A stretch of 34,639 nt of DNA from a virus. Below the pieces are notes generated by a model that was not told where the DNA came from, made no database searches, and saw nothing but the letters and a program-made list of their open reading frames with translations. Location of the stretch: IMG/VR virus record IMGVR_UViG_3300025154_000276, positions 1-34,639 of that record; one strand, given 5' to 3'. The position numbers were made by a program, and so were the translations under genes. This document shows positions 1 through 32,388 of the stretch, in pieces. Numbering within the stretch: the first letter of the stretch is position 1; every line of letters begins with the position of its first letter.

Positions 1-184
1 CCCAGATTGTCCCGCCTGCTTTGTTCTTCTTGTTAAAAGCAATCTTTTCTTCTCTTGTCTTACTTGCCCACCAATGGTTCCATCTCGCTCTGCTTACATA
101 CGCTCTGCGAACACTTGCAACATTATACATGTGGCGAGAATATGATAAGCGTATCTGCATTCTTTTGTTTCTTGGGTTACTCAC
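1..184 (-). CDS. Hypothetical protein, 3' part cut off by window edge
   Basis: An open frame begins at a GTG whose last bases form a GTGA overlap with the stop codon of the resolvase gene, and it stays open for 61 codons to the left edge. A good ribosome binding site (AGGAGA, about 9 bases upstream) supports this start. The visible product begins MSNPRNKRMQIRLSYSRHMY and is very basic, with many Arg and Lys and a Trp pair (NHWWAS). I do not recognise the family; the length and C-terminus are unknown. The tight coupling to the resolvase places it in the same operon. Confidence 0.6.
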   Translation of the reverse strand, partial: MSNPRNKRMQIRLSYSRHMYNVASVRRAYVSRARWNHWWASKTREEKIAFNKKNKAGGTIW

Positions 185-666
185 TTTTTGGCTCTCCTGT
201 GAAAAACGACTTTTATTTTCTGTGATTTACTTCTCGCAGTATTCAGACTGTTGGAACCTACCATTCTTTCAATGAATGTGTTGAAAACAACATCACTTGG
301 GTAAGAGATTAACGAAATTTCAACACGTACATCTTTTCGTCTTTTAACCCTAATTTGTGGTCTTACAACAGACTCAACAGTCTTCTCATTATCCTCTGGG
401 ATCACTCCGATCCATTGCAATGCGTCATTTGTGATCTTGACCACAGAGGCCCAAATGTTGTCTTTATCTCTGGCTACCCCACAGTAATAAAGTTGATAAA
501 TGATGTAGCAACGTTCAAAGGTCGGTTTCTTGATTGGAACAATCTGTGTAAGCAGCTCTCTTGCTACTTTAGTAACTGCCGCATTCTTTATCATCCCTCC
601 AGCAGATGACCCTATCATTTTCGTCAATGACGGATATTTTGACTTTATCAGGAGGTTGTATTTCAC
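181..666 (-). CDS. rusA-like: RusA-family Holliday junction resolvase
   Basis: Predicted 161-residue endonuclease that would resolve four-way junctions arising during replication and recombination. From the GTG start it begins MKYNLLIKSKYPSLTKM, resembling the 'PSLN' opening of phage RusA proteins. The catalytic core follows: D67-K-D69-N, then NDAL (D81) and the PEDN segment with D92. These match the DxDN, DAL and LDD positions of E. coli RusA (D70, D72, D91), with about four extra residues between DxDN and DAL. The ORF stays open upstream to a TTG at 732. I prefer GTG 666 because GGAG lies four bases before it and because it keeps the PSL motif. This start overlaps the upstream gene by 98 bases; ATG 618 would overlap less but lose that motif. 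Family assignment is fairly sure, the start is not. Confidence 0.7.
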   Translation of the reverse strand: MKYNLLIKSKYPSLTKMIGSSAGGMIKNAAVTKVARELLTQIVPIKKPTFERCYIIYQLYYCGVARDKDNIWASVVKITNDALQWIGVIPEDNEKTVESVVRPQIRVKRRKDVRVEISLISYPSDVVFNTFIERMVGSNSLNTARSKSQKIKVVFHRRAKK

Positions 667-886
667 GTAACTCCGATGAGGAACAAAAAGTGATTTTCGT
701 ATTTTCTGGTTGCATACTTCGTTCTTCGACAAACTCTATCTTGTAGATGCCAAGAAGAGGAGGATTGAAATAAAGACTTTTGTAAAGATATTTTTTCGAC
801 GTTTCTTTATCCTTAGCTACAACACCCACACGTATCTTTGTTTCTTTGTTTTGAAGCTCATAAGTATATATCTTTAATTCTTGCAT
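569..886 (-). CDS. Hypothetical protein (105 aa)
   Basis: ATG-started frame beginning MQELKIYTYELQNKETKIRV, rich in alternating charged and beta-prone residues, with no membrane segment. It starts three bases after the stop of the 69-residue gene, so translation is probably coupled; no clear ribosome binding site is seen. Its last 30 or so codons overlap the resolvase gene in another frame, which is unusually long. Family not recognised. Confidence 0.55.
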   Translation of the reverse strand: MQELKIYTYELQNKETKIRVGVVAKDKETSKKYLYKSLYFNPPLLGIYKIEFVEERSMQPENTKITFCSSSELREIQPPDKVKISVIDENDRVICWRDDKECGSY

Positions 887-889
887 GAG

Positions 890-1099
890 TCAGTGCCGAA
901 TATGAATATTTGGGGTTCCTTTTTCCAAACCCAAAGAAATGTCCATTGCTCCTGATTTAATAAGGATTGTCAACTCCAACAACTGTTCATAGGTTGAAGA
1001 AGTAACAAGTATCTGCTCCCCTTTATGAGGAATAGTTACAGAACAGGGCTGTGGGCCTACCACATTGTTACGACAAATAAGAGAGGGTGTGTTACTCAT
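890..1099 (-). CDS. Hypothetical protein (69 aa)
   Basis: Small ATG-started gene with a good ribosome binding site (AAAGGTG about 7 bases upstream). Its start overlaps the end of the 122-residue gene by 8 bases. The product has no cysteine pair, membrane segment or motif that I can name; the middle contains a helix-prone stretch (TYEQLLELTILIKSGAMDIS). Its place in a tightly packed run of small genes supports it being real. Confidence 0.6.
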   Translation of the reverse strand: MSNTPSLICRNNVVGPQPCSVTIPHKGEQILVTSSTYEQLLELTILIKSGAMDISLGLEKGTPNIHIRH

Positions 1100-1460
1100 A
1101 TTTCAACACCTTTATTGGGACAGGCAGATTAACTCCGCACAGTTGAAATATTGCGTTCTCAATATAGTGTCCTGACATTGTTAATACCCCTCGGTTGTCC
1201 CAAAACTGCACAGGTGGTTGTGCATCTAAGAAAACATGGATTTCTTTATCATGAAAAGACAGAGAGATATGAAATCCATCTCGATCACCAAACACCTTTG
1301 TAACCAAAATTGCAAGTTTGATCTCTTGAAACACTCTTCTGTCTTCAATAGTGTTCAATAAAAACTCTATTGCAGTATAAACGCGCTCTCCTTCTATACG
1401 ATAGGGAAGACCTGTGCTATCGTCGAAGTGATCTTTGGAGATGATTACACGTTCATTCAT
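1092..1460 (-). CDS. Hypothetical protein (122 aa)
   Basis: ATG start overlaps the stop of the methyltransferase gene by 8 bases, implying coupled translation. The product is soluble and mixed alpha/beta with no recognisable domain. The pattern FHISLSFHDKEIHVFLDA looks like a beta hairpin. No function can be assigned from sequence; proximity to the methyltransferase does not prove a shared role. Confidence 0.65.
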   Translation of the reverse strand: MNERVIISKDHFDDSTGLPYRIEGERVYTAIEFLLNTIEDRRVFQEIKLAILVTKVFGDRDGFHISLSFHDKEIHVFLDAQPPVQFWDNRGVLTMSGHYIENAIFQLCGVNLPVPIKVLKYE

Positions 1461-2172
1461 GCTTTAAACTTTTCATATTGGTTACTGCAACACGATAATT
1501 GTCCGAATCAATCTCAATACCGATGTAGTGTCTCCCCAACAAACTTGCCGCTTTACAAGTGCTCCCTGATCCACAAAAAGGGTCAAGAACTACTTCACCG
1601 GGTTGGGTCGTTGGTTCGATGAGTTGTGTGAGAAGCGACAAAGGCTTCTGCGTACTGTGTTGCAAGTGGGTACTTGCGAGTCGTTGAACTCGAATAATAT
1701 TTTGAGAGCGTCCACCAAACAATGCCCGTCTGCCTTTTTGTGCGTGAAGAATAAACTCCGTAGTTGGAGACCAAGTAGCTTTAAGGTCGCCAGAACCATG
1801 CCACTCTTTGTCCCAAGTGAGCAGGGTGCGATAGTGAAGCTCCCTTGTATTTGAAATGATTGGGTAGATGGTAGCAAAGGTCTTTGCGTGGCAGAAGCAG
1901 AGGAAGTTACTTTGAGGTTTAAGTATCCTGACGGCACAGTGTAGGAAATCTGGGAACCATTCAGCAATGTCCCGATCACCGTGAAGTTTTCTAAACTTCT
2001 TTGTTTTAACTCTTCTGTTTGACTGGTAAGAAATGCCATAAGGAATGTCCGTAAGTAGAATATCTATACATTCATCAGGAAACTCTTGTAGAAGTTCTAA
2101 GCAATCTGCATGGATTACACGATTAAGAAAGGGTTGCAGTGCATACGGATTTGCGATACCTCGTATTTTCAT
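1453..2172 (-). CDS. DNA methyltransferase, beta-class amino-methyltransferase
   Basis: Predicted S-adenosylmethionine-dependent DNA amino-methyltransferase (N6-adenine or N4-cytosine) of 239 residues. The catalytic motif IV appears first, as TDIPYG with D42-I-P-Y45, a variant of DPPY. The SAM-binding motif I comes near the C-terminus, VLDPFCGSGST with D197. Motif IV before motif I defines the beta group. A short target-recognition region lies between them (about residues 60-160). The ATG overlaps the previous stop as ATGA. No restriction endonuclease is adjacent, so it is probably an orphan enzyme protecting phage DNA from host restriction. Target sequence unknown. Confidence 0.88.
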   Translation of the reverse strand: MKIRGIANPYALQPFLNRVIHADCLELLQEFPDECIDILLTDIPYGISYQSNRRVKTKKFRKLHGDRDIAEWFPDFLHCAVRILKPQSNFLCFCHAKTFATIYPIISNTRELHYRTLLTWDKEWHGSGDLKATWSPTTEFILHAQKGRRALFGGRSQNIIRVQRLASTHLQHSTQKPLSLLTQLIEPTTQPGEVVLDPFCGSGSTCKAASLLGRHYIGIEIDSDNYRVAVTNMKSLKHE

Positions 2173-2414
2173 AAGAGGGTTAATTCTTTTTCAAAGTCAT
2201 CAATAATCTTTGTTGCCTTTTCAATGCACCCCAACAGCCCACTTCCTCTTTTATAAACACAATAAGAAACCGATTCTACGTTGTTAGTATTACGATTATT
2301 ATAAGCACTTACTATATGTAAAGATGTAGAGGATAAACAAAACCCGTTACGAAACGGTGTAACTACAAATCCCTTTTCCTCGTAAAGAAGAAAGATTGAA
2401 TGAATGTTAAGCAT
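2169..2414 (-). CDS. Hypothetical protein (81 aa)
   Basis: Small gene between the zinc-ribbon-like gene and the methyltransferase, with an ATGA overlap to the latter. ATG lies two bases after the preceding stop codon. The product begins MLNIHSIFLLYEEKGFVVTP and ends in a helix-prone acidic stretch (KIIDDFEKELTLL). No motif recognised. Confidence 0.6.
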   Translation of the reverse strand: MLNIHSIFLLYEEKGFVVTPFRNGFCLSSTSLHIVSAYNNRNTNNVESVSYCVYKRGSGLLGCIEKATKIIDDFEKELTLL

Positions 2415-2416
2415 TA

Positions 2417-2644
2417 TTAGATAACAGCTATATCAGTTCGTAAAAACGTATCACAATCCCTGCATTTAAAGAAACCTGTAATAAAATATTGTTTTCCATC
2501 ACGGACAGCTTGTTCCATAGCTTTAGTAGAGTCTTCAGAGTGTATAGGCTCTCTGTTAATAGTTTCACGTTCTATAACATCAAGCTCCTCAAAACATGAA
2601 ACACAGATCACTTCACCTGAGTCTAATACATAACCTATTACCAT
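2417..2644 (-). CDS. Small zinc-ribbon-like protein (75 aa)
   Basis: Contains two cysteine pairs, C14-V-S-C17 and C61-R-D-C64, the pattern of a four-cysteine zinc ribbon. The 43-residue spacer is long for a simple ribbon, so the fold is inferred. I chose ATG 2644 over the upstream GTG 2662 because GGGAG sits just before it and because it shortens the overlap with the 87-residue gene to seven bases. The role is unknown; small zinc-binding phage proteins often contact host proteins or nucleic acid. Confidence 0.62.
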   Translation of the reverse strand: MVIGYVLDSGEVICVSCFEELDVIERETINREPIHSEDSTKAMEQAVRDGKQYFITGFFKCRDCDTFLRTDIAVI

Positions 2645-2901
2645 GTGCTCTCCCACTGCCACGCAATAGGATTTTCTTCAAGGAGTGCCTTATTTTGTTC
2701 AAAGTCCCATTTGTTGACGAAGACAGGGAAAAGTCCCAGATCATACCGAAGATGCTCCCCTTTGTCGTTGTATGCAATCACACCCATACGCGCACTGTTA
2801 AAGATACGCTTTATCGGCATGTAGTTTGTCTCATTTGAGTTCGTGAGAAAGAGTTCATCTTTTCTTAACTCAGGATGTGTTTGTGCAGGGAGTGTTGTCA
2901 T
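2638..2901 (-). CDS. Hypothetical protein (87 aa)
   Basis: ATG-started gene directly downstream of the 5'-3' exonuclease (one base between stop and start). The protein is mixed alpha/beta with no cysteines and no membrane segment. A central segment (SARMGVIAYNDKGEHLRYDL) looks like paired beta strands. I do not recognise the family. Confidence 0.6.
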   Translation of the reverse strand: MTTLPAQTHPELRKDELFLTNSNETNYMPIKRIFNSARMGVIAYNDKGEHLRYDLGLFPVFVNKWDFEQNKALLEENPIAWQWESTW

Positions 2902-2902
2902 T

Positions 2903-3871
2903 TCACACTTTTAAAGTATTAAAGATACGTTGCAGTCTGTCCCATTCACCTATAAAGCTAAGAAACCGATTCTTGACAAAGAATTTATACAGCCAGTCAT
3001 AATCAACTGTTGGCAATGGGGAAATGGACAGTGCAGTATCCAAGTCCTTTGTATAGGGAAAAAGTGCTAAGTCCATTAGCATTTGGTTTCGTTCAATGAG
3101 TTCAAAGTTCTTTAAGATACGATCATCAGCATCAATGAGATCGTCATAACTTTGGGTAGCATAAATAATCGGCAGTCCTCTTTTCGGGCCTATTTGAGGA
3201 ATCCCCTGTAAACTGTCGCTACTATCACCAATAAGACACTTGTATCTTACAAAATCTCCAAGAGACAACCCCCTCGGTTTCTGTTTGCAATCGAAATCTC
3301 TGAAGTTTTCAACAGTCACCGTTTCATCAATATCAGTTAAATAAACATCAACATCCCATCGAACCAGTTGTAACCAATCCCTGTCTATGGTAGCCAGTGT
3401 AAAGTTAGGTGGAATGATGTTGTCATTTAAATAACGGTCAATACCCCCATACATTCTTCGCGTGATCCAAAATGCGAGGTCATCAGCTTCCAACCCCGGC
3501 CACTGCCACTGCCTAACAGGGAGGTGTTTCATCATTTTAACACCCTCTGTTACCTGTCTGTTAATATCTGCTTTATGTTCAAACTCTTCAGGGGTCTTTG
3601 CTCTCCGTCCTGATTTGTATTCAGAACAAATTTTCCTCCTCCAATTAGGAGTTTGATCATCCCAAACAATGTAAACGGAGGTGGGTTGTATAGAACTGTC
3701 TATCAAGTTTACCAGAATTTCGACCATCCCATACAACCCACCTGTCTTCTTACCATCCGTGGAAAGTGTGTCATGCACTCCAAACGCACGGTAGATAAGA
3801 GGATTGCCATCTACAACCAGAATCCGCTCTGGTGTGCGTTTCTCTTTGGTGTGAAAGAGAACTTTGATCAT
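2903..3871 (-). CDS. 5'-3' exonuclease / flap endonuclease
   Basis: Stand-alone 322-residue PIN-like 5' nuclease, equivalent to the N-terminal domain of bacterial DNA polymerase I and to T5 D15. It would remove RNA primers and 5' flaps. Metal ligands are visible: D21 (VVDGNPLIYRAFG), E128-A-D130-D131, the TIDRDWLQLV segment, and G-D216-S-S-D219 followed by the helix-hairpin-helix-like GIPQIGPKRG that grips DNA. The start ATG overlaps the SSB stop as TAATG. The polymerase two genes upstream lacks this domain, so the two products together correspond to a complete Pol I activity set. Confidence 0.92.
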   Translation of the reverse strand: MIKVLFHTKEKRTPERILVVDGNPLIYRAFGVHDTLSTDGKKTGGLYGMVEILVNLIDSSIQPTSVYIVWDDQTPNWRRKICSEYKSGRRAKTPEEFEHKADINRQVTEGVKMMKHLPVRQWQWPGLEADDLAFWITRRMYGGIDRYLNDNIIPPNFTLATIDRDWLQLVRWDVDVYLTDIDETVTVENFRDFDCKQKPRGLSLGDFVRYKCLIGDSSDSLQGIPQIGPKRGLPIIYATQSYDDLIDADDRILKNFELIERNQMLMDLALFPYTKDLDTALSISPLPTVDYDWLYKFFVKNRFLSFIGEWDRLQRIFNTLKV

Positions 3872-4605
3872 TAGTCTTGCTTTTCCGGCTTGTTGCTCTT
3901 TGTCAAAGCATCAAGGTCTGTTGCTTCAAGAAGTTCCTCAATATCTTCGTAAGGCAAGCATTCCGTATAGTCCCGCAAATCCTTACGAGCATCGAGGATC
4001 GCATCAACATCATCCACCATGTCTTCCAATGGACGTGCTTTGGGATTGGGCCGAATTTCGTACTTCGTGTTCAAGCCCGATCCTTCACGATGAATGTTGA
4101 TATTTCTGCCTTTTACAATATCATCAAGGTCATCCCACTCAGGGTCAACGAAATACCCCAAGAGGCTCTCAAAGACTTTGCGACCGAAAGCAAGAACACG
4201 TGTTCCAGTTCCGATAACATAACCATTGGCAAAGATACGAATTTTCGGGTAAAGGTGCTTTGCAATCTTCTTAGATCGCTCAGTACCTTTATTCTTCATG
4301 TCTTCAGCCTTCTCACAGATTGGACATTTATCACCATTGATCTTGTTGGGACAAGCAATTGTACGACTTTCCGGGCCAATACGATAGTGATAGTGCCCAC
4401 GAGAGTACCAAAGTTTTGTTCCTTCAACAGGAGGAAGAATACGAATCATATTCTTTCCTTCTTTCCACTGATAGAAGTCGCCTGACGCTGTTTTGAGGTC
4501 ATCGAGTTCCTGTTGCATGAGTTCAGTGCGATCCAGCTTAGTATCCTTTGCTGTCTTTTTACCCTTACCGGATGGATGGGAGTCACTTCCGAGCGAGACT
4601 TTCAT
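3871..4605 (-). CDS. Single-stranded DNA-binding protein, T4 gp32-like
   Basis: 244-residue protein that would coat single-stranded DNA at the fork. A basic N-terminus is followed by the gp32-type core: NMIRILPPVEG at about residues 52-62, then a zinc-binding segment with H71/H73, C85, C94 and C97 (DKCPIC). The C-terminal third is acidic, as expected for the tail that recruits replication proteins. A strong ribosome binding site (AAGGAGA) precedes the ATG, 14 bases after the polymerase stop. Base composition is somewhat more GC-rich than neighbouring genes, consistent with high expression. Confidence 0.85.
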   Translation of the reverse strand: MKVSLGSDSHPSGKGKKTAKDTKLDRTELMQQELDDLKTASGDFYQWKEGKNMIRILPPVEGTKLWYSRGHYHYRIGPESRTIACPNKINGDKCPICEKAEDMKNKGTERSKKIAKHLYPKIRIFANGYVIGTGTRVLAFGRKVFESLLGYFVDPEWDDLDDIVKGRNINIHREGSGLNTKYEIRPNPKARPLEDMVDDVDAILDARKDLRDYTECLPYEDIEELLEATDLDALTKSNKPEKQD

Positions 4606-4618
4606 AAGTTTGATCTCC

Positions 4619-7057
4619 TTAGATTTCTACTGCTTCACCCCATGACTTACCACAAGATATGTCAACAGGGGTTGGCAATGTCAACCATTGTATGTTTGGA
4701 TGTTCCATGATATATTTAATGTGAAGGAAAAGCGTTTCAGGGTCACTTGGGTGATTGTCAAAAAGGTTACAGTCATGAATAAAGTTGATCAGCAGTGTTC
4801 TATAATTATGCTTCAATAAATAAGCAACGACACGATTTCCACTTATAAGATTTATAACATTAGCGGCATTGGCAACAGGGTGATTTCCTGCTTGTCTTTC
4901 CATTCCTGCTTGATCTTTTTTGCTGGCCCGACTGTAATCAGGGAAATAACGTCTTGCTCCCGATGGTGCTTCAATGAATCCCTTTGTTCTCAGTTCAAAC
5001 TTAATGATCTTTCGGTATTCAATGATCTCAGGAACAGCTTTTGTCCAATCTGTGATGTAATCCCTCCAATATTGAACACCCTTTCCATGTCGCTCATCTA
5101 AGCCTTCTGCACCCTCGCCATACAGAACTCCGAAGTTAACCCTCTTTGCATCTTCTCTTTCACCATCAGCAACTTCTTCTAATTTACACCCCTTTATCTT
5201 TGCGGCAACTAATCTGTGAGGATCACCTCCTTTACGGAAAACCCGCATGAGCATTTCACACTCTGTAAAGATCGCAAAGACTCGCAACTCGAATTGCTTA
5301 TAGTCAGCCGATATAATTTCCCCACCATCAAAACGAGAAGTAAAAAGAGATCGTATGTTAAAGTCTTTGCCCTTCTTCAGTTTCGGATTTGGGATATTCT
5401 GAAGATTAGGGTTACTACTTGTTAATCGTCCATTAGCGGCAAAGAATCCGAAACTTGAATGAACAAGATCATCATCACGAATCCATTCCTTCAACGCCTC
5501 CCCAGAATACGTTGTTTGTAACTTTCTTAACTGTGAGAAGTTTATTAACGCATCCGCAAGAGGATCATGTAGGAGTTTCAATGTTTCAGCATCAACAGCA
5601 GGAGCTTTCCCTTTGGTAAATTTCTTCGCTTTCAGATGTTGAAACTTGAAAAGAAGTTCTGCTTTTTGCCGGGAACTGTTGAGATTGAGTTCCCCATTTT
5701 CCTTTTCAAACTTCTTTATAGCTGAAAAGTTCCAAAGAGTTTTCTTAGCAACAGCAACTTCCGCTTCCAATTTCTCTTGAATTGTCTGTGCTCGATCAAT
5801 GTCAATATGACAACCATTGATCTGCATGCGGAGTAACGTAATAATACAGGGGTGAAGTACATTTCGATAGTAATCCAGTCTGCTTACTCCTGTCCCCCAA
5901 CATACCCCATCATCATCTGCACCTGTCTCTTCCAACTTCTTCAACCAATATTTCCACATCAAGAAGGCAACGACAGAATCCATCCCACAGTATTTATGCA
6001 AAATTGCAATGTCTACTCCCTCATATCCGCCTATAACAAATTCAACATCATCTTCTTTAACCTTCAACTGTTGATGTAGTTCTTGTTCGTACCCTGCATA
6101 CTTTGGGATGTATTTTGCAGTCTGTGCTTTTAATCCGAGTGGTGCTTTCTCATCATCAGTGTAACAGAGGTACATCGTGTCCCATGTCCAATGTTCACAC
6201 CAAATATTGAGCAGAACGAAAAGAAACTGACAGTCAAACATTCCATTCTGTGCGATCTGTTCTGCATCCAGAGCAAATATTTTTCTGAGCCAAGCAATCT
6301 TTTCTAAGTCTTCTTCACTGTCGCTGTCTCTTGTCAATTGAAGATCAACAACAAGGGCTTTATCATCTTCGGCAGAGAAGGAACAACAGAGAATCTTCGC
6401 ATCCTTACGAAACATGTCCTTTGTATTTGTTTCCAAGTCAAAGGCCCATGCGGGGAACTGCTTTAAATAATTATAAGCCTCTTGAAGAGTTACAGTTTTT
6501 ATATCTGCATTGGCTTCTTCAAAAATAGAAGGGTCAAATAGGGCAGAAAGGTCTTCAATGAACTCTTTTTCTACAGGAGACTTTCCCTCTTTCAATTTGT
6601 TTCTTTTAACAAATGAAGGATGCCAAGTAGGAAAGAAGATTGTTCCATCTTTTACAATCTTACGTCCTCTCGCTCTCTTAATACTCTTAACATCCAAACA
6701 CGCTTTTAAGGCAACTGATCCTAAAGGAACAACAATATCTGGGTTTAACCGTTTCAACTCTTCCCGGAGATGCCAGTTACATTTTCTTATTGTTCCTGCT
6801 TCCGGTGTTTTGTTGTTCAGTGGCCGACAACGTACTGCATTAGTATAATAAACAGGCCACTCTTCCCCATTTGCGATCTCAACCATTCTTCGCAACAATG
6901 TTCCAGACTCTCCAACAAAGGGTATCCCCTGTTCATCTTCATTACGACCCGGTGCTTCCCCTACAAAAACAACTGTAGGGTGTTCCTCTCCAGAACCATC
7001 CATACAGTTTGTATGTGCAAACTCATGTAGTGGACACTTAACGCAACGAATCTTCAT
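4619..7057 (-). CDS. DNA polymerase family A with N-terminal uracil-DNA glycosylase domain
   Basis: 812-residue replicative polymerase with three domains. Residues 1-175 are a family-4/5-type uracil-DNA glycosylase: C5/C8, C77 and C93 fit the 4Fe-4S ligands, GEAPG (33-37) is the active-site loop and H146 (TWHPS) the C-terminal motif. Residues about 200-370 carry the 3'-5' proofreading exonuclease (D207-L-E209). The polymerase domain has motif A with D585 (DYKQFELR), motif B from K638 (KRVNFGVLYG) and motif C with D762 (IHDC). The residue after the motif C aspartate is Cys rather than the usual Glu. The 5' nuclease domain is absent and encoded separately. UDG-polymerase fusions are known from SPO1-like phages. 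Start at ATG 7057 overlaps the previous gene by 20 bases. Confidence 0.93.
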   Translation of the reverse strand: MKIRCVKCPLHEFAHTNCMDGSGEEHPTVVFVGEAPGRNEDEQGIPFVGESGTLLRRMVEIANGEEWPVYYTNAVRCRPLNNKTPEAGTIRKCNWHLREELKRLNPDIVVPLGSVALKACLDVKSIKRARGRKIVKDGTIFFPTWHPSFVKRNKLKEGKSPVEKEFIEDLSALFDPSIFEEANADIKTVTLQEAYNYLKQFPAWAFDLETNTKDMFRKDAKILCCSFSAEDDKALVVDLQLTRDSDSEEDLEKIAWLRKIFALDAEQIAQNGMFDCQFLFVLLNIWCEHWTWDTMYLCYTDDEKAPLGLKAQTAKYIPKYAGYEQELHQQLKVKEDDVEFVIGGYEGVDIAILHKYCGMDSVVAFLMWKYWLKKLEETGADDDGVCWGTGVSRLDYYRNVLHPCIITLLRMQINGCHIDIDRAQTIQEKLEAEVAVAKKTLWNFSAIKKFEKENGELNLNSSRQKAELLFKFQHLKAKKFTKGKAPAVDAETLKLLHDPLADALINFSQLRKLQTTYSGEALKEWIRDDDLVHSSFGFFAANGRLTSSNPNLQNIPNPKLKKGKDFNIRSLFTSRFDGGEIISADYKQFELRVFAIFTECEMLMRVFRKGGDPHRLVAAKIKGCKLEEVADGEREDAKRVNFGVLYGEGAEGLDERHGKGVQYWRDYITDWTKAVPEIIEYRKIIKFELRTKGFIEAPSGARRYFPDYSRASKKDQAGMERQAGNHPVANAANVINLISGNRVVAYLLKHNYRTLLINFIHDCNLFDNHPSDPETLFLHIKYIMEHPNIQWLTLPTPVDISCGKSWGEAVEI

Positions 7058-7238
7058 GATCAGGAGTTACGAGAACAATAGGGCCGAACTCTCTTCCGAA
7101 ACCAATTTTGAAGGGCAGAACGTGTCCTCTTGGAATCCATTCCCACAGTTTAGGATTCAAGAAGACAAATACTTGTAGACTTGTATTTTTGAAGTCTGCA
7201 TGCAACGAGTTGTTGCATTTCTCGTATTTAATTTTCAT
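7038..7238 (-). CDS. Hypothetical protein (66 aa)
   Basis: Small gene bridging the TS-like gene and the polymerase, overlapping both (11 bases upstream, 20 downstream). It begins MKIKYEKCNNSLHADFKNTS and has an aromatic centre (NPKLWEWIPRG). No family recognised. The overlaps at both ends argue for coupled translation in one transcript. Confidence 0.55.
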   Translation of the reverse strand: MKIKYEKCNNSLHADFKNTSLQVFVFLNPKLWEWIPRGHVLPFKIGFGREFGPIVLVTPDHEDSLR

Positions 7239-8133
7239 TGGGAAAGCGTGTATCCAACCACCTATGAAGGTTCGTTGCCAGCATCCCCGAAATGCCTGAT
7301 TTCATAATGAGGTGGTAAGCATCTTCTCTTGCTTGTGAAACATTCAATGAGGGAAGAAGACAAACACTTTTTGGTGCTTGTGTAATATCATCTTCTGTTC
7401 TCAAATTGAGTGTTCCACCTCTTAGAACATTTTCAACCAGAGAGACAAGTGACCCATAAGGAAGAGATATTTCTTCAGGCTGTTCCATCGTAAGTTGTCT
7501 CATCCAGTCGGAACTTTCTCTTCCAAAGTCCTTTTGATATTGCTGTATGCTGTCACAGATAAATTTGTACTCTGAATCTGTGACTTTTATTTGTCCAAAG
7601 AGTGCAATAAGCTTTCCGGGGAAGAATGTAACAACTCCCGTTTCCTTCTTTAATTCTGTACATAGAACGTGCATAAGGACATATTGAAAGCACAGTTCCA
7701 TGTAGACATCCCAACTTCCGAAAAGATCAGCGTCATAAATGAAACTGGCAATCTCAACCGTGTAATCCCCGTCTGTTGGAACTAATTGAACATTGTAGGA
7801 AGCCCATGTTTCTTCCAACAGGTGTACGGATTTGAAGGGTCTTGCTTTTAATTCTTGAATTGCAGAGTACAACTGATCACCACAGGTGTAGTGTCTCCGC
7901 AATTGTTCATTAGAGGTTATCCGTTTGAGTGCCGTACTGAATACCATAGGGAGATCATCGGCCAACCAATCCAACTGTAATGCAAAGTGCTCAGGATAGG
8001 CAACCTGAGCACAAATATTGCTGAGAGAATACTGTCCTCTTTCCGGTGTGTGATCCGCACCTTGTTGCATGAAATTCATCGTCTGCAAATAGAGATCAGT
8101 AACATTTAAACATGACATTGGAATCATTGTCAT
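7228..8133 (-). CDS. Thymidylate-synthase-like protein, apparently without the catalytic cysteine
   Basis: 301-residue protein with a spaced resemblance to the thymidylate synthase superfamily. PERGQ (residues 30-34) fits an N-terminal phosphate-arginine segment. GDQLYSAIQELKARP (85-99) fits the 'DQL..vi..Lk..P' segment. A block from about 123 to 170 (YTVEIASFIYDADLFGSWDVY, then ETGVVTFFPGKL) fits the 'RS-D-x-x-x-G-x-P' to 'G.HiY' part. The expected Pro-Cys nucleophile is missing; cysteines lie only at 8, 41, 84, 147, 157 and later, outside that context. It may be an inactive homologue or a different enzyme. Two further in-frame ATGs lie within six codons; the second (8127) has better spacing from GAGG. 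Assignment is tentative. Confidence 0.4.
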   Translation of the reverse strand: MTMIPMSCLNVTDLYLQTMNFMQQGADHTPERGQYSLSNICAQVAYPEHFALQLDWLADDLPMVFSTALKRITSNEQLRRHYTCGDQLYSAIQELKARPFKSVHLLEETWASYNVQLVPTDGDYTVEIASFIYDADLFGSWDVYMELCFQYVLMHVLCTELKKETGVVTFFPGKLIALFGQIKVTDSEYKFICDSIQQYQKDFGRESSDWMRQLTMEQPEEISLPYGSLVSLVENVLRGGTLNLRTEDDITQAPKSVCLLPSLNVSQAREDAYHLIMKSGISGMLATNLHRWLDTRFPNEN

Positions 8134-8142
8134 ATCCTCGTT

Positions 8143-8172
8143 GTTATAACTTTTAAAACAAAATACTTTGAA
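8143..8172 (-). promoter_or_regulatory. Possible sigma-70-type promoter
   Basis: On the minus strand, TTCAAA (8167-8172) is followed after 18 bases by TATAAC (8143-8148), just upstream of the TS-like gene and overlapping the 3' end of the tRNA-like element. The -10 is close to consensus and the -35 weak. It could drive the left block. Confidence 0.28.
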
Positions 8173-8277
8173 GGGATGGTAGGACTCGAACCTACAACAC
8201 TACGATACTGTCATCATGTGGACTATTAAAACCACAAGCTCAGGCTACCACAGTTCTGCCGATTGATATACATCCCC
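8172..8277 (-). tRNA. tRNA-like element with oversized body, anticodon unassigned
   Basis: The 3' half is convincing: a perfect five-pair T stem (GTAGG/CCTAC) around a seven-base loop TTCGAGT, joined directly to an acceptor strand CATCCCT. That strand pairs over seven positions (one G-U) with GGGGATG at the 5' end. T8 and a D-loop-like AATCGGCA follow, but the D stem has only two clear pairs. The middle is abnormal: TGTGGT occurs twice, 16 bases apart, and the second TGTGG pairs with CCACA around a ten-base loop. Total length is 106 bases, longer than a normal class II tRNA. CCA is not encoded. It could be a decayed tRNA, a tRNA with an insertion in the anticodon arm, or a tRNA mimic. Confidence 0.5.
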
Positions 8278-8284
8278 TTCTTTC

Positions 8285-8318
8285 ACACTTCCCCAACTTC
8301 TGAGGAGCCGGGAAGTGT
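8285..8318 (-). other. Nine-pair stem-loop upstream of the tRNA-like element
   Basis: ACACTTCCC and GGGAAGTGT form a perfect nine-base inverted repeat around a 16-base loop, ending eight bases before the tRNA-like 5' end. No U-run follows. It may be a transcript-processing or protection structure. Positions 8134-8354 contain this, the tRNA-like element and the next hairpin, but no gene. Confidence 0.5.
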
Positions 8319-8346
8319 TACAACATGCCGAGCCGATATAAATGTG

Positions 8347-8367
8347 ATTGCCTGTTATTCAGGCAAT
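8347..8367 (-). terminator. Hairpin at the end of the acidic/lysine-rich gene, possible terminator
   Basis: Perfect eight-base inverted repeat (ATTGCCTG/CAGGCAAT) around a five-base loop that contains the TAA stop codon of the gene at 8355. On the minus strand it is followed by CACATTTATAT, a poor U-tract, so termination may be weak; it could instead stabilise the 3' end. Confidence 0.4.
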
Positions 8368-8987
8368 TCCCATCCCATCTTCTCGTATGCGGCTTTGATC
8401 ATCCGCTTACGGTTGAGACTTTCCTTGTCATGCTTGTTCCACGTGACATCGTTCTCTTCGCAAAATTCTGCGAGTTCATCCGTGTCTTCGTACTTGCCGC
8501 CATCAGCGAGTTCTTCCTCAAACTCTTTTTGAGTCAAACCACCGAGTTTCTTTTTGTCCTTCTTGTCGGACTTTTCCGGCTTTTCCGGTTTGTCCTTCTT
8601 GTCGGATTTTTCTTTCTTGTCGCCCACATCGAGCGTTTCGCCGTCGAACTTGAGGCTGATTTTTCCATTTTCGGTAAGCTCTTCGATGATCTTTGGGATC
8701 AAAAGAGCCAACGCGCCTGCAAGTTCGTAATTGACTTCGTTCTTTGCCATACTGACTGTCTCCTGTTCTTCTGGGGTTTGCATTTCAAGCTGAATCGGGC
8801 TACTTGGTCTTAAACCTTCACCTATAGTAACATTATGAAGTTTCATAAATTTTAACAACGCTTCCGAGAAACCACGTGTGGAAGCAAACAAACCGATTTG
8901 TGCTCGTAAACACTCAACACGTGCTTTGTCATCTTGACATAGCCCATAGAGTCCTTCAATGTCCAGTTCTTCAAATAGGTTCTTCAT
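8355..8987 (-). CDS. Hypothetical acidic/lysine-rich protein, possible two-start gene
   Basis: 210-residue frame from ATG 8987, overlapping the sigma factor gene by 17 bases (a GTG three codons upstream is the alternative). The first 79 residues are ordinary and helix-prone. A second ATG at 8750 has a far stronger ribosome binding site and would give a 131-residue protein starting MAKNEVNYELAGALALLIPK. That part has a hydrophobic helix, a repetitive Lys/Asp/Glu linker (for example KSDKKDKPEKPEKSDKKDKK) and a charged C-terminal domain (TQKEFEEELADGGKYEDTDE). Codons downstream of 8750 look more GC-rich than those upstream. No family recognised; high-level expression of the short form is inferred. 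Confidence 0.65.
   Translation of the reverse strand: MKNLFEELDIEGLYGLCQDDKARVECLRAQIGLFASTRGFSEALLKFMKLHNVTIGEGLRPSSPIQLEMQTPEEQETVSMAKNEVNYELAGALALLIPKIIEELTENGKISLKFDGETLDVGDKKEKSDKKDKPEKPEKSDKKDKKKLGGLTQKEFEEELADGGKYEDTDELAEFCEENDVTWNKHDKESLNRKRMIKAAYEKMGWELPE
8748..8765 (-). promoter_or_regulatory. Strong internal ribosome binding site and start
   Basis: CAGGAGAC ends seven bases before an in-frame ATG at 8750, inside the gene at 8355-8987. Its own first start (ATG 8987) has only a weak GAG-type site. This is the strongest reason to expect a separate 131-residue product. Confidence 0.55.
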
Positions 8988-9540
8988 GGTACTCACTCTT
9001 GGAAACGATTTGTTCAGTATTTTCAGGATACCTTGTTAAAAACGCTTTTCTAAGTAGCTTGAAGGCACTTCGTCTTTCATTATCCGTTATTCCTACGAAT
9101 TGATAGACTTTTTGCCAAGTAAGCTTGCCTCTTTCTTGTTCCAACTGAAGTTTGTTGGGGTTAACAAAGGCTCTAATAAGGCGTACAGCCGTTAAATTCC
9201 CTGTTCTGTGGGCAATATCGAAGAGAAGGTCAATCACATCTTCTGAGGTCACAGGATCAGTAATAGACAAATTGTAGTGATCTTCAGTAAGAGACTCGTG
9301 AGGATATTTTTCAAAGGGCTTTTGTGTAGTGCGCCAGTGATCAATAATAGTACGATTGATTGCAACACCAAGAACTTCATTCAAATTGTCTGAACCATAT
9401 CTCTTGTATATTTTCCAACTTGCAACGGCAAGCTTTTGAAAGAGATCATCTGCATCAAGAGATGTGTTTTTACACCGCTTCTTAGCAATACTCTTCATTC
9501 GAGAACAACCCTCATGTTCCCACCACTGTTCCCATGTCAT
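8971..9540 (-). CDS. RNA polymerase sigma factor, ECF-like
   Basis: 189-residue protein with the layout of a small sigma-70 family factor. Region 2 covers about residues 15-70: the helix SLDADDLFQKLAVASWKIYK corresponds to the core-binding and -10-recognition region, and the following NRTIIDHWR resembles the end of region 2. A linker precedes a C-terminal helix-turn-helix candidate at about 138-168 (KVYQFVGITDNERRSAFKLL) corresponding to region 4. It would bind host core RNA polymerase and direct it to phage promoters. The start ATG overlaps the previous stop as ATGA. Homology is distant, so 'divergent sigma factor' is the safe call; its promoter motif is not known. Confidence 0.7.
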   Translation of the reverse strand: MTWEQWWEHEGCSRMKSIAKKRCKNTSLDADDLFQKLAVASWKIYKRYGSDNLNEVLGVAINRTIIDHWRTTQKPFEKYPHESLTEDHYNLSITDPVTSEDVIDLLFDIAHRTGNLTAVRLIRAFVNPNKLQLEQERGKLTWQKVYQFVGITDNERRSAFKLLRKAFLTRYPENTEQIVSKSEYHEEPI

Positions 9541-9992
9541 AGTTTAATCCTCTTCGGGAGATTCAGAGTTCTTGCTTGTGGAACAACAAGAGGTTTCGCC
9601 AGAGTGACACACCACCAGTTTGCTTGTAATTCGTATTTCAACTGTTTAAAGTTGTCTCGGTAAACTTGCGCTACAATATCCCCTGTAAAAGAACATCTTC
9701 TATTATATATAAATGACTGTAGGAAGCCTGAAGTATCGTAAGGAAGAAAGAGTCTCTCACCAACCCCCACAAATTCTGAGGCACGAAACAACTGTGAAGA
9801 AATCAAAGTGTTCTTTGTTTTTCGTTGTTGCATATAGTCCGGCAGTTTTTCAACATGTGAGAGGTGTAACCAAATTCTTGTATTTTGAGGAAGAGAAATC
9901 AAACTCCATTTCAAAACACAATGAGGAACCACATCTTTCACATATTGCAAAGCTGGAAGTTCTTTGTTTTCAGCATTCCACTCAATTTTCAT
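9537..9992 (-). CDS. Hypothetical protein (151 aa)
   Basis: ATG-started gene between the 115-residue protein and the sigma factor, overlapping both (11 and 4 bases). It begins MKIEWNAENKELPALQYVKD and is rich in aromatic and beta-prone residues, ending in a basic stretch (LNLPKRIKL). No signal peptide, membrane segment or named motif. Coupling to the sigma gene suggests co-expression, nothing more. Confidence 0.65.
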   Translation of the reverse strand: MKIEWNAENKELPALQYVKDVVPHCVLKWSLISLPQNTRIWLHLSHVEKLPDYMQQRKTKNTLISSQLFRASEFVGVGERLFLPYDTSGFLQSFIYNRRCSFTGDIVAQVYRDNFKQLKYELQANWWCVTLAKPLVVPQARTLNLPKRIKL

Positions 9993-10329
9993 TTGAGTCT
10001 ACGTCAAAATGTTCTAAAAGAAGATCGAGCTTTCTTTCAATTCTTTCAAGACGATCTGCATTTTCATGAATTGCGACTGTAGTAGGACGGGAGGGCTTTC
10101 TTCCTGCTCCGGGCTTTCTCTTGTTGTCTGCATACCCATAATGAACCAAGAGATTACGAACAGCCATCATGCGCTGAATATTCTTGTCGCCTTTTGCGTT
10201 TGGAACAGTTAAACCGAGAGTCTTGTTGGCAGTTAAAAGATCGGATAAAGAGAGGTTTTTAATTTCATCTTCAGATGGACAACCTTTAGAAGATGGAGTT
10301 TTCTTGCTTCCAGACAAATTTATTTTCAT
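9982..10329 (-). CDS. Hypothetical basic protein with coiled-coil tail (115 aa)
   Basis: Strong ribosome binding site (AAGGAG, 8 bases before ATG). The centre has a Gly/Arg/Pro-rich basic patch (KRKPGAGRKPSRP), loosely like an AT-hook, and the C-terminus is a short amphipathic helix (RLERIERKLDLLLEHF) suited to dimerisation. It may bind DNA, but this is inference from composition. It lies immediately after the terminator of the histone-like gene and begins the run into the sigma factor. Confidence 0.65.
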   Translation of the reverse strand: MKINLSGSKKTPSSKGCPSEDEIKNLSLSDLLTANKTLGLTVPNAKGDKNIQRMMAVRNLLVHYGYADNKRKPGAGRKPSRPTTVAIHENADRLERIERKLDLLLEHFDVDSNEN

Positions 10330-10343: not shown

Positions 10344-10387
10344 AAAAAGATTGTTGGGGAGCAAGTGGTTAAACTCACTCCCCAACA
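10344..10387 (-). terminator. Rho-independent terminator after the histone-like gene
   Basis: TGTTGGGGAG and CTCCCCAACA form a perfect ten-pair stem around a 16-base loop; on the minus strand it is followed by ATCTTTTT. It starts ten bases after the stop of the lysine-rich protein gene, so it is well placed to end that transcript. Confidence 0.8.
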
Positions 10388-10397
10388 GAGGGTGTTG

Positions 10398-10742
10398 TTA
10401 CTTTTCAAACCCTGCGGCTTGACGTAACGACTTGCGGAAATCGAGAACAGCTTGATGTCTCTGACGAGTGTGCTCACAAATCGGCTCAATCAACCGATGT
10501 TCGTAAGCACCGACATCAACACGATCCTTGTAAGAGCGGAAAGCTTCTTTGAACTTTCCACTGTCCACAAGGTCTTTTTCCTTCTGAGTGAGTGGCGGAA
10601 ACTTCCATTGTTCCCGTGGAGTGGTGGATTTCTTCGCACTCGCTTTCTTTGCAGGATGCTTTTTCGAGGCTTCCTTCTTGTTCGACTTCGTAGAAGCCTT
10701 CTTCGTGGTTGCTTTCTTCTTCAATTTAACACTGAAAGACAT
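10398..10742 (-). CDS. Lysine/alanine-rich histone-like basic protein
   Basis: 114-residue protein with a histone H1-like N-terminus of about 42 residues, made of Lys, Ala and Ser (for example KKATTKKASTKSNKKEASKK, then PAKKASAKKSTT). A more ordinary helical domain follows (PPLTQKEKDLVDSGKFKEAF). Such tails bind DNA or RNA non-specifically; a role in compacting or protecting phage DNA is inferred. A strong ribosome binding site (AGAGGAG) precedes the ATG. The gene has its own candidate promoter and a strong terminator, and looks more GC-rich than neighbours, which points to high expression. It could alternatively be packaged or act on host ribosomes or nucleoid. Confidence 0.75.
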   Translation of the reverse strand: MSFSVKLKKKATTKKASTKSNKKEASKKHPAKKASAKKSTTPREQWKFPPLTQKEKDLVDSGKFKEAFRSYKDRVDVGAYEHRLIEPICEHTRQRHQAVLDFRKSLRQAAGFEK

Positions 10743-10799
10743 GGGAAACTCCTCTGGAGTTAATTAGGGGAAATAAGGTGTCTTGTTTGTGACAGTTGA

Positions 10800-10828
10800 A
10801 AGTTAAGCAGATTTATAGAGTTTGTCAA
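10800..10828 (-). promoter_or_regulatory. Promoter of the histone-like gene
   Basis: On the minus strand a consensus -35 TTGACA (10823-10828) is followed after 17 bases by TAACTT (10800-10805), a weak -10. Transcription would begin about 50 bases before the ATG. It sits in the 114-base gap 10743-10856, one of the longest in the window. Confidence 0.5.
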
Positions 10829-10856: not shown

Positions 10857-11843
10857 TTAGCTTTTTATTCTCGATCCCACAACTCGAATTGGAGGCATGC
10901 CTCTTCTAACTGTAGCGTCTAACGCATCAAGAGTACCTGTTATCAGTTCTGCTTTTTTTAAGGTACTTTCAAGTTCTATAAGCGAACTTGTATCTGGGTC
11001 TTTCCCCGGTGATATTGCCCATCGAGTTTCAATACCTCTAATTGCTAACTTTTTTGCTACCTTAATTGCATTATCAGGCGCGTCATTATCCAACAAAACA
11101 GTTGCACGTTTCCAAATATAAGAGATCAAATCGAGTTGTTGATTGCTCAACGACTTTCCAAAGATACAAACACAATTTGGAAGCACACAATCGAAAATAC
11201 CTTCAACAAGGATCACATCATCATAATGGATTGCCTGTTCAATATTATAGAGAGCAAAGGCTTTGTTGCAGAGCGGGTTGATGTATTTGTTATCAACGTT
11301 TGGTTTGATTGTCCGTGCCTGATACCAAATAAGTTTTCCATCTAAAGAGTAGACTGGAAATATTATACGTTGAAAGAAGCGGCGACTCTTAACACTGAAT
11401 CCTACTTTCCTCGTCTTGATATTATTGTAAGTCCAACCACGATCCTTTAAATAGTGTTTCAATCGTAATGCGTAATCACGAAACTGACCCGAATCTGTGA
11501 GTAGTTGAAACCCCTCAATTTCTATCGAGGATACTTCCATCCAAGAACTGTCCTTCTCTTGTATCTTTTTTAAGCCCTCCTGCAATTCATCAATAGATAC
11601 TGCCCGTTGTTCCTTTTTCTCAAAGAACTCTGTCCCATCATGTTCATAAAGGAAAGTACGAAGATGAACACTATACTCACAACGGTAGCAATAACATAAA
11701 TTTGTTTGAAGGTTTATCGAAAATGTCTTATGACTCTCCCCTCTACAATTTGGTTGCAGGCAGTCTATACGCCATTCTGCACCTTTTGACCCAAAGGTAA
11801 GTGTTCCATCTGGAAACTTTCTTTTGATAAAGTGGTCACTCAA
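10857..11843 (-). CDS. DNA primase with CHC2-like zinc finger and TOPRIM domain
   Basis: 328-residue DnaG-type primase that would make RNA primers for the DnaB-like helicase encoded upstream. The N-terminal zinc site has C28, C33 (with H38 nearby), C52 and C55. The TOPRIM core shows the catalytic glutamate E214 (VEGIFD) and the paired aspartates D252-N-D254 (LLDND), followed by SPGKDPD. It is shorter than bacterial DnaG and lacks an obvious helicase-binding domain, as in many phages. The start is a TTG forming TTGA with the previous stop; no other in-frame start precedes the zinc finger. Confidence 0.88.
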   Translation of the reverse strand: MSDHFIKRKFPDGTLTFGSKGAEWRIDCLQPNCRGESHKTFSINLQTNLCYCYRCEYSVHLRTFLYEHDGTEFFEKKEQRAVSIDELQEGLKKIQEKDSSWMEVSSIEIEGFQLLTDSGQFRDYALRLKHYLKDRGWTYNNIKTRKVGFSVKSRRFFQRIIFPVYSLDGKLIWYQARTIKPNVDNKYINPLCNKAFALYNIEQAIHYDDVILVEGIFDCVLPNCVCIFGKSLSNQQLDLISYIWKRATVLLDNDAPDNAIKVAKKLAIRGIETRWAISPGKDPDTSSLIELESTLKKAELITGTLDALDATVRRGMPPIRVVGSRIKS

Positions 11844-28377: not shown

Positions 28378-28938
28378 CTATCTCCTAAAAGTGCGATCCA
28401 AAAATGAAAAGTAACGTGATTGATTGTCATCCCATGCACGTGTGAGATAATACTTTCCAACACGTCCTTTAAACTTCCCCCCGGAATTTGCCCGTAATGA
28501 TCGTGGACCTAATTTTGTCCATCTATCACTTTGGTGAATATATCTTGCGTAGGGTGTTGCAAAGCCTACAACGAATTTAAAAGTACTTGATGTCTTTGCT
28601 TGTTGCATTGCTCGAATAGCAACAGTTGTTGGGTTTTCTTTTTTCCCCACATACACACGCCCTGCACGAAGTTTTCCTGATTTGGTTGGCCCACTTTTAA
28701 TTGCGTTTGAAAGTTCCATTGCTACTACTTCTTGGTCTTCCAAACGCACATTTCCCGTAGACCTCAATAACCCTGTTTTGATGTTTGCGCGACCAACAGC
28801 TTCACGGAGGAGGTCTTCAGAAATCATGTAAATTACTTGTGCAAAACCTCCCATGATAACACTCTGTACAACAGGCTCTATTTGAAAATCCCCTGTGTCA
28901 GTTGTACGAACAACGAATCGTGCTCCTTGTACAGGCAT
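28378..28938 (-). CDS. HK97 gp10-like neck / tail completion protein
   Basis: 186-residue basic protein with the features of the HK97-gp10 family. It has an N-terminal helix, IKTGLLRSTGNV (the 'TG.Lr.Si' segment) and FATPYARYIHQSDRW, the characteristic 'Y.rYih' element near the C-terminus. Such proteins join head and tail. The ATG overlaps the previous stop as TAATG. An insert of basic residues (SGPTKSGKLRAGRVYVGKK) lies between the two motifs. Confidence 0.72.
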   Translation of the reverse strand: MPVQGARFVVRTTDTGDFQIEPVVQSVIMGGFAQVIYMISEDLLREAVGRANIKTGLLRSTGNVRLEDQEVVAMELSNAIKSGPTKSGKLRAGRVYVGKKENPTTVAIRAMQQAKTSSTFKFVVGFATPYARYIHQSDRWTKLGPRSLRANSGGKFKGRVGKYYLTRAWDDNQSRYFSFLDRTFRR

Positions 28939-29321
28939 TAGTCACCCGGAACAGGTGTTACTTGTTGTGCCGCAACACACTGAAGTTTTTGTACCCCTGT
29001 GATTCCTCCTAACAAGTCTCCTTGATCTTTTGCAACAACACGTAATGTTGCAATACGTGTTGGAACACTGTCAAGTCCATAGAGTTCAAGTAAACTGTCA
29101 GCGTCAACAACAACTGTACTCTCACAGGATATAATATACCCTCTTTGACGACCTGTTTCAGTACCTTCAACCATCACATTCCCTTGTGCATACCGACATT
29201 TATAGAGTGTTCCTGTAGTAGGAGCAGTCGTTACTTTAGGGCGGCCAAAGTCATTTGTTTGTGCGCTTCCCTGCACGTACACACGAAATTGTGCGTTTGC
29301 GTAAGCTTCTATAATGCTCAT
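28938..29321 (-). CDS. Head-tail stopper-like protein (127 aa)
   Basis: Small beta-rich protein between the minor head protein and the gp10-like protein, where head-completion stoppers are encoded. ATG overlaps the previous stop as ATGA. The central region (GTLYKCRYAQGNVMVEGTET) resembles a small SH3-like beta barrel. Assignment is by position and size. Confidence 0.58.
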   Translation of the reverse strand: MSIIEAYANAQFRVYVQGSAQTNDFGRPKVTTAPTTGTLYKCRYAQGNVMVEGTETGRQRGYIISCESTVVVDADSLLELYGLDSVPTRIATLRVVAKDQGDLLGGITGVQKLQCVAAQQVTPVPGD

Positions 29322-30235: not shown

Positions 30236-30812
30236 GGATCACTTGTACTTCACTGTTAACGAATTTTCTTAACTTCGCAAGTGCTTCTTCTGCCAAGAAG
30301 TAAAAAGGACTTGCGCCATCACCTGAAAATGTTTCTGTTAACCCCGGTACAGAGAAGGAAGCAACACCTTCTTTTTGCAAACGGATGTGGTCAACAACTT
30401 GTGACAAACGCGGATTGGTTGCCAAAATGTGATTTGCTTGAATAGCACATGCCTCTGCAATTTCAGGAGGAATTATCAGAACTCCAGAACTGTTATAGCT
30501 GTATGGAAGAATACGATTAGTTGACCCCTCCTCATCTGCCGCAAACCACGTTTCCCAATAGTTTGTTGATTTCCTCGGCCACTTCAACTTTTGGTAATCA
30601 GTAGCACCCACAACACTCGTATTCATTTTCAAACCCATGAACTCTAAACGATCAATTGCACGAGTAGCCAGAACCAATGCAACCTTTTTTTCATCATCAG
30701 TTTTGGATGCCCAAATAGCACCAAGATCAGCCCAATACGTGTTCGCATCGGCTAATGTGATGTAAGAGTTGGAACTGCTACCTCCAGCAGTTGCATCAAT
30801 CGTTATTGCCAC
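30228..30812 (-). CDS. Neck adaptor protein ('DnaT-like' phage family)
   Basis: 194-residue protein resembling the phage family often labelled DnaT-like. It begins AITIDATAGGSSSNSYITLA, has the helix ANTYWADLGAIWASKTDDEK, then RAIDRL, KWPRK and EIAEACAIQANHILA. In virion modules these proteins attach to the portal as head-tail adaptors; the DnaT label is misleading in this context. The start is GTG 30812 with AGGAGA seven bases upstream. Confidence 0.75.
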   Translation of the reverse strand: MAITIDATAGGSSSNSYITLADANTYWADLGAIWASKTDDEKKVALVLATRAIDRLEFMGLKMNTSVVGATDYQKLKWPRKSTNYWETWFAADEEGSTNRILPYSYNSSGVLIIPPEIAEACAIQANHILATNPRLSQVVDHIRLQKEGVASFSVPGLTETFSGDGASPFYFLAEEALAKLRKFVNSEVQVIRA

Positions 30813-31170: not shown

Positions 31171-31177
31171 TTTTGGT

Positions 31178-32308: not shown

Positions 32309-32344
32309 AACGAAACTCCTACTTATTAAAACTGTAACTTAGAC

Positions 32345-32388
32345 GTGGGCAGGGGTAGCTCCAAAATATCTACTCTACCCCTGCCCAC
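32345..32388 (-). terminator. GC-rich hairpin after the major capsid gene
   Basis: A perfect 14-pair stem (GTGGGCAGGGGTAG with CTACCCCTGCCCAC) around a 16-base loop begins ten bases after the capsid stop. No U-tract follows at once, so it may act as a partial terminator or as a 3' barrier stabilising capsid mRNA. Confidence 0.7.

Follow-up and report, generated by a model that had tools for sequence, protein, structure and literature searches.

Gene content and context of the locus

The window analysed here, a stretch of 34,639 nucleotides, belongs to a tailed phage recorded in IMG/VR, and its minus strand carries nearly all of the genes, in the order head, tail, helicases, primase, the cassette that is the subject of this analysis, a sigma-like gene, DNA polymerase, a gp32-like SSB, an exonuclease-like gene (a label that comes from reading the sequence and not from a family search) and a methyltransferase. 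A second record, IMGVR_UViG_3300025030_000294, overlaps both window ends with 100% identity in its fetched part (window 1-9505 and 28647-34639) and adds 19.3 kb absent from the window, which suggests that both come from a single phage, circularly permuted and about 54 kb long. The cassette itself is not covered by this overlap.

The reading frame that the original prediction placed at this locus is present; it lies on the minus strand and has an ATG start (Table 1), and its Lys-rich product is referred to here as P0001. The gene is separated from that of the DNA primase by a gap of 115 bases in which a consensus scan found no terminator-like site, and on its other side the TAAGGAG of the next gene abuts the U-run of the cassette terminator. 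The frame is also GC-richer, as had been claimed, with a GC content of 46.1% in a range of 35.5-48.9% for the 37 window genes, and it ranks second of the 37 in GC3, behind the capsid gene alone.

Table 1. Features of the cassette and of the genes on either side of it (window coordinates).
Feature	Position	Strand	Remarks
DNA primase gene (upstream context)	10857..11843	-	phrog_47, 2.3e-42
-35-like hexamer TTGACA	10823..10828	-	6/6 matches to the sigma-70 -35 consensus
-10-like hexamer TAACTT, 17 nt from the -35	10800..10805	-	3/6 matches, short of a sigma-70 -10 element
Inverted repeat AACTCC-AGA-GGAGTT, 6 bp, candidate Shine-Dalgarno mask	10747..10761	-	whole fold z -0.8
Shine-Dalgarno GAGGAG (contains AGGAG)	10749..10754	-	
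Gene of Lys-rich protein P0001, 114 aa, ATG start	10398..10742	-	homologue L011:848-1162
N-terminal tail, residues 1-42, 15 Lys	10617..10742	-	structure model of low confidence: pLDDT blocks 49-60 up to residue 40
C-terminal domain, residues 43-114	10401..10616	-	helices 53-60, 64-74, 81-109 (two-sequence model)
Intrinsic terminator hairpin, 10 perfect pairs, then AUCUUUUU	10352..10387	-	-24.7 kcal/mol
Next gene, 115 aa	9982..10329	-	conserved in the cousin phage (L011:2186-2563)

P0001 is a strongly basic protein, with a pI of 10.24 and a net charge of about +18. Most conspicuous is its tail, which besides the lysines has 6 Ala, 7 Ser, 5 Thr and a single acidic residue, is predicted to be disordered and, with K+R = 16 in 40 residues, is the most basic such stretch among ORFs of at least 50 residues in the window and the fetched rest of the phage. 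The Lys/Ala-rich, H1-like tail of the original prediction is therefore real as a Lys/Ala/Ser/Thr-rich stretch at the N-terminus, but no histone family matched it. Other proteins of the same phage also carry Lys-rich stretches, an example being the product of gene 8355-8996, so the tail may reflect a general habit of the proteins of this phage. In the latter protein and in its counterpart in the related phage described below (L011:3936-4844), Lys-rich low-complexity linkers of unequal lengths lie between conserved ends.

Signals for transcription and translation

A consensus promoter led by TTGACA had been claimed upstream of the gene. The -35-like hexamer is perfect, but the -10-like hexamer is poor and the promoter is weaker than claimed. 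The TATAAA that lies within the spacer is wrongly spaced. Our own weight matrix places the pair second among the promoter-like sites of the minus strand. When the 128-base stretch was shuffled, 20 of 1000 shuffles equalled its score, and in a second run 3.7% of 300 did. In a consensus scan the pair fell below the cut-off, and promoter-like sites in the window were no commoner than in shuffles. We consider the candidate promoter before the Lys-rich gene to be plausible.

The window also encodes a sigma-region-2-like protein (8971-9540, minus strand) that has a counterpart in the related phage (L011:3363-3926). The window protein scores 20.4 bits with Pfam Sigma70_r2, for which the cut-off is 24, and E 1.7e-5 with TIGR02937, also below cut-off, and the counterpart has no match to the Pfam sigma model. 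A phage sigma factor encoded by this gene could use promoters of another type.

The predicted strong ribosome-binding site is confirmed by the hexamer GAGGAG; many of the 37 window genes have a Shine-Dalgarno match of 0-4 bases. Strong Shine-Dalgarno sequences also precede the SSB, major tail, capsid and next (9982) genes. An inverted repeat overlaps the site and was considered as a mask for it; we make no such claim, as 46 of 200 shuffles fold as well and the corresponding value in the related phage is z -0.24. Rfam gave nothing at the cassette.

The perfect ten-pair terminator of the original prediction is the best supported of these signals, and that a terminator follows the Lys-rich gene is certain by sequence. 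The hairpin begins 10 bases after the stop codon and has a G+C-rich stem with a U-run immediately after it, and counting two G-U pairs lengthens the stem to 15 pairs. It has a z of -4.6, with none of 200 shuffles as stable, and in our own scan, where its energy is -23.7, no hairpin plus U-run of equal stability arose when the entire minus strand was shuffled 60 times. No other terminator-like site in the window is as strong. The best promoter score between the Lys-rich gene and gene 9982-10329 is 6.2, at a site that spans the start of the next gene, and as there is no good promoter in this interval the genes downstream of the hairpin probably depend on read-through.

Family searches with P0001

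P0001 has no convincing match in Pfam, NCBIfam or PHROG, where only weak, tail-driven matches were obtained, and no match among records of cultivated phages. Among Pfam matches HU/IHF (PF00216) is absent at E up to 1 for the whole protein and up to 10 for its pieces, and Hc1 (PF07432) matched neither the whole protein nor its pieces. Kinship with histones or HU is not borne out, as no such family matched, and the term histone-like can stand as an analogy only. Residues 1-42 do qualify as an Hc1-like Lys/Ala-rich low-complexity segment, by composition alone. A PF07432 protein has been reported from a lineage of jumbo phages (PMC12619734); P0001 shares with Hc1 the Lys/Ala-rich low-complexity segment, but in P0001 that segment occupies the N-terminus and is attached to a conserved domain of its own kind. 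Two candidate relationships of the C-terminal domain were rejected: a bL12-like domain gave no Pfam row, and kinship with the product of the next gene (9982) had an hhalign probability near 0.

A homologue in a cousin phage

Because the family libraries gave only weak, tail-driven matches to P0001, relatives of the phage were sought through its DNA polymerase. An alignment of five DNA polymerases, used as the query, led to 80 loci, and the nearest other phage is that at locus L011 (contig IMGVR_UViG_3300009081_000016, 55.9 kb), with a DNA polymerase 37% identical to that of the window phage. A primase scan for relatives returned nothing, and from a helicase scan there was a single match, L004, at 24%. 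The L011 cousin also has matches to the head and tail genes of the window phage.

The cousin encodes a homologue of P0001 (L011:848-1162), a protein of 104 residues with a Lys-rich stretch and 26% identity, which is the best match among 701 ORFs taken from pieces of the cousin contig. In comparison with P0001 it gives Z 8.0 at full length and Z 7.55 for the C-terminal domain, with none of 2000 shuffles reaching the score in either case. The two proteins share the motif PL..E..LVDSG[KD][FW]K[KE]A, and conservation of P0001 is strongest in its C-terminal helical domain, which carries LVDSG[KD][FW]K[KE]A, and not in the tail, which in the cousin is shorter and has an acidic patch. Together the two proteins make up a new family of two members. 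A profile built from both recovered the cousin alone from 12,216 ORFs of the fetched loci, the next hit having an E of 0.22. When viral_contigs was scanned, no member was confirmed among the 174 stretches obtained with P0001, the 8 with its C-terminal part, the 600 with the pair or the 185 with the C-terminal part of the pair, and these negatives are weak, as the cousin lies in viral_contigs and yet none of the four scans returned it; the scan with the pair was seeded on the Lys tail. Likewise none was confirmed among 584 and 163 stretches of genome_contigs, and tblastn found no relatives of P0001 in phages and plasmids or of the cousin protein in phages.

The position of the gene is also shared. 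Both phages have, in this order, helicase, primase, the Lys-rich gene, a homologue of gene 9982, the sigma-like gene, a homologue of gene 8355, polymerase, SSB and the exonuclease-like gene, with extra genes in between in the cousin. The 9982 gene matches its cousin homologue with Z 10.0; for gene 9537 and L011:2677 relatedness was not demonstrable (224 of 2000 shuffles). Furthermore, a ten-pair perfect hairpin (L011:1193-1219) lies 30 bases after the stop of the cousin homologue, with a sequence unlike that of the window hairpin; 3 of 2000 shuffles of that gap equal it. Its U-run is poor (UUCUGUCU), and its energy is reached somewhere in 4 of 60 shuffles of a 20-kb stretch. The occurrence of the homologue, again followed by a hairpin, argues for selection on the bounded unit.

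The one-gene layout is not conserved, since the cousin homologue seems to be the last in a run of four genes. There the primase is followed by about 820 noncoding bases and three genes without a match in the window phage, and only about 50 bases precede the start of the homologue. No recognisable promoter was found directly before it, and 32% of 200 shuffles do as well as the best candidate in the noncoding stretch. Compared with a phage moron, an autonomous insert of promoter, gene and terminator, the window gene has the terminator and a plausible promoter, but it is present in the one comparable relative. The noncoding stretch of the cousin (L092:2497-3320) contains several G/C-run hairpins and is a candidate replication origin or control region.

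These comparisons bear on whether the gene could be an ordinary member of a read-through operon that has no active promoter, in which case the hairpin would tune the downstream genes and the protein would be an adaptor between proteins, its Lys tail serving solubility or disorder and its suggested partners being the helicase, the primase or RNA polymerase. The poor -10, the gap without a terminator-like site behind the primase gene, the Lys-rich linkers in other phage proteins and the cousin gene at the end of its four-gene run are all consistent with such an arrangement, but the 115-base gap contains the second best promoter-like site of the strand, the terminator stands far above background and the charge of the protein is extreme, and we consider this explanation unlikely.

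Structure models and a resemblance to eL36

A single-sequence model of P0001 has a pLDDT of 69.6 and a pTM of 0.27 and gave no useful structural match. The AlphaFold2 model built from two sequences is better in the C-terminal domain, the helices of which are near 90, and has an overall pLDDT of 72.7 and a pTM of 0.48. When the two-sequence profile was compared with the PDB, five rows were obtained at E up to 10, four of them eL36 (0.022, 0.053, 0.1 and 5.0) and the fifth CT021 (E 0.071). Foldseek with the two-sequence model likewise named eL36 in at least 18 of 31 matches, at E 1.7-9.6, none of them significant, and the best VIA-align superposition (Z 4.5, rmsd 2.2, 48 residues) places residues 49-104 of the model on approximately 49-109 of eL36, in the same register as the sequence match. 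The 29 VIA rows include a SANT domain (Z 4.0, rmsd 3.6) and a homeobox domain (Z 2.5, rmsd 6.5), neither of which is used as evidence. In the reciprocal direction, an eL36 profile ranked the cousin protein first (E 2.3) and the window protein 16th (E 16) among 12,720 phage ORFs, a ranking that is weak and in part circular, the eL36 rows having been selected because they matched.

These results raise the alternative that P0001 is an RNA- or ribosome-binding factor with an eL36-like C-terminal domain, made in quantity to bind host ribosomes or the mRNAs of the phage itself; in eL36 a basic extension is combined with three helices that pack on rRNA. In addition to the profile rows, the Foldseek matches, the shared register and the reciprocal ranks, the two proteins resemble each other in having a basic extension and a small helical domain; the sequence and fold lines are not independent, as AlphaFold2 may echo the sequence likeness. 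All of the values are below significance, and a column-shuffled control that retained the real tail reached E 0.054 with CD3 chains, which are unrelated. No PDB row was obtained with the pair or the single sequence in reversed form. Neither the C-terminal domain alone, P0001 alone nor the cousin alone found eL36, and PF01158 (eL36) matched neither of the two proteins. eL36 is a eukaryotic ribosomal protein, to our knowledge known so far from eukaryotes, whereas the P0001 gene has no ribosomal context and is placed among replication genes. We regard this alternative as doubtful, and it would be a long shot that the family combines an eL36 fold with a highly expressed rRNA- or ribosome-binding protein that has its own terminator beside replication genes.

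Phages do encode ribosomal proteins (bS21, bL12, bL9 and HPF), the first two of which are incorporated into E. coli ribosomes (PMC6375957); P0001 differs from these in having no significant match to a ribosomal protein. eL36 is absent from the table of cultivated-virus finds in section 6 of that source, and, judged by its listing, a literature search on eL36 and phage gave no paper on a phage-encoded eL36. If true, the eL36-like lead would mean that phages possess a ribosomal-protein fold of a kind not expected in them.

Expression level

Codon usage was compared with that of the capsid, major tail and scaffold-like genes as the reference. The Lys-rich gene of the window ranks second of 37 by raw codon index and ninth (z 1.09) after control for amino-acid composition, and the SSB gene is first in the window by both the raw index and z. 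The cousin homologue has the highest raw codon index and GC3 of 28 ORFs and is fourth by z (3.44), in a set that retains one ORF ('exo') with an internal stop, which lies outside the reference set. Codon usage thus supports an abundant product, clearly in the cousin and weakly in the window, where it is neutral to mildly favourable. The strongest codon bias among the 28 cousin ORFs is that of the 8355 homologue (L011:3936-4844).

Proposed role of P0001

We propose that the locus is best read as a discrete, terminator-limited unit for an abundant nucleic-acid-binding accessory protein encoded beside the replication genes, a reading that we think has about an even chance of being correct. The sigma-70-like candidate promoter would start an mRNA of about 0.45 kb, running from approximately 10793 to 10343, and the strong Shine-Dalgarno sequence would drive translation of the basic protein. 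The terminator would then end most transcripts right after the gene, such that P0001 would be in excess over the downstream read-through genes. In view of its charge, its flexible tail and the place of its gene, P0001 is most likely a nucleic-acid binder of low sequence specificity, with the Lys-rich tail providing charge contacts and the three-helix C-terminal domain providing specific contact or self-association. Its likeliest role is to assist phage DNA replication and the organisation of the genome inside the cell, as the gene sits between those of the primase and helicase and those of the SSB and polymerase, and in this it would be like phi29 p6 or T4 MotB, with no sequence match to either in family searches. 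We infer that the promoter is used, that the protein is abundant and that it binds nucleic acid, presumably DNA rather than RNA; the two kinds of binding are about equally open, and the sub-significant likeness to eL36 keeps an RNA reading alive. The shielding of DNA, competition with host nucleoid proteins and early timing, which had been suggested for this protein, are guesses.

The self-contained cassette of the original prediction consequently stands for the most part, in its terminator, its ribosome-binding site and its basic, tailed protein, but not in the strength of its promoter. Against the proposed role there are the poor -10 and a promoter site only moderately above shuffles, the monocistronic layout that is not conserved, the weak codon bias in the window after composition control and the poor U-run of the cousin hairpin. 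No family or fold match shows nucleic-acid binding, Lys-rich stretches recur in the phage, and the cousin tail is shorter, with its acidic patch.

The inferred likeness to phi29 p6 is one of role only. This protein organises and compacts the phage DNA and activates replication (PMC10899789; PMC4974454) and has been described as a novel fold (PMC10899789). Both are small phage proteins encoded with replication genes, but there is no sequence match in family searches and P0001 has a Lys-rich tail and a helical domain. The p6 fold is absent among the Foldseek and VIA rows, although absence from such searches excludes nothing. T4 MotB is an early-gene phage DNA-binding protein without sequence specificity (PMC6070864), and P0001 would resemble it as a phage-encoded non-specific DNA binder if its putative binding is real; MotB is not tied to a replication block, and there is no PHROG or Pfam match of that kind to P0001, these family libraries being the ones searched.

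As MotB copurifies with H-NS (PMC6070864), P0001 might instead be a host-takeover factor directed against host nucleoid proteins or RNA polymerase, similar to MotB or to phage anti-H-NS proteins. P0001 is small, basic and apparently driven by a host-type promoter, as such a factor might be, but no match to such families was found in PHROGs or Pfam and the gene is kept in the replication block, and we judge this quite improbable. Lys-rich proteins are able to neutralise packaged DNA, and on this general ground P0001 could be a DNA-condensing protein packaged in the virion; the gene lies among those for replication, a long way from the head genes, and no result points to the virion, which makes this the least probable of the explanations and one that we hardly credit.

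Genome organisers and host-takeover factors may well be found among the small basic phage proteins that have expression units of their own, most of which are unnamed. The unit described here appears to be an ordinary kind of thing, well bounded, and what is new is the two-member protein family. With its homologue, its conserved place and the conserved hairpin behind it, P0001 is anchored such that it becomes testable as a family and not as a lone ORF.

Other observations in the two phages

In the cousin, two copies of a leader bracket the unit of the P0001 homologue (L092 reverse complement, approximately 3395-3506 and 5345-5443; L011:1193-1290). Each has a long hairpin, TTCTGT and a second hairpin in which the stem differs and the loop TGGCT is kept, followed by CACCGATGATGRCAAGCC and TTAGGAGGATTCTRTYATG, and the loop could pair with AGCC downstream. 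These two copies are the ones in the fetched sequence; there is none in the window, and the leader has no Rfam match.

A tRNA-like sequence at window 8171-8277 (minus strand) has good acceptor and T arms and an odd middle of 50 bases; it scores 28.8 bits, with a gathering score of 29, ARAGORN finds nothing there, and it may be a degenerate or interrupted tRNA gene. Elsewhere in the same phage, outside the window, an 18-base tandem repeat is present 23 times inside an ORF (L003:151-564), giving a VKHRCT-like hexapeptide repeat. Between the capsid and head genes, window 31178-32308 (minus strand) encodes a protein of 376 residues that has no PHROG match and is 39% identical to its cousin copy.
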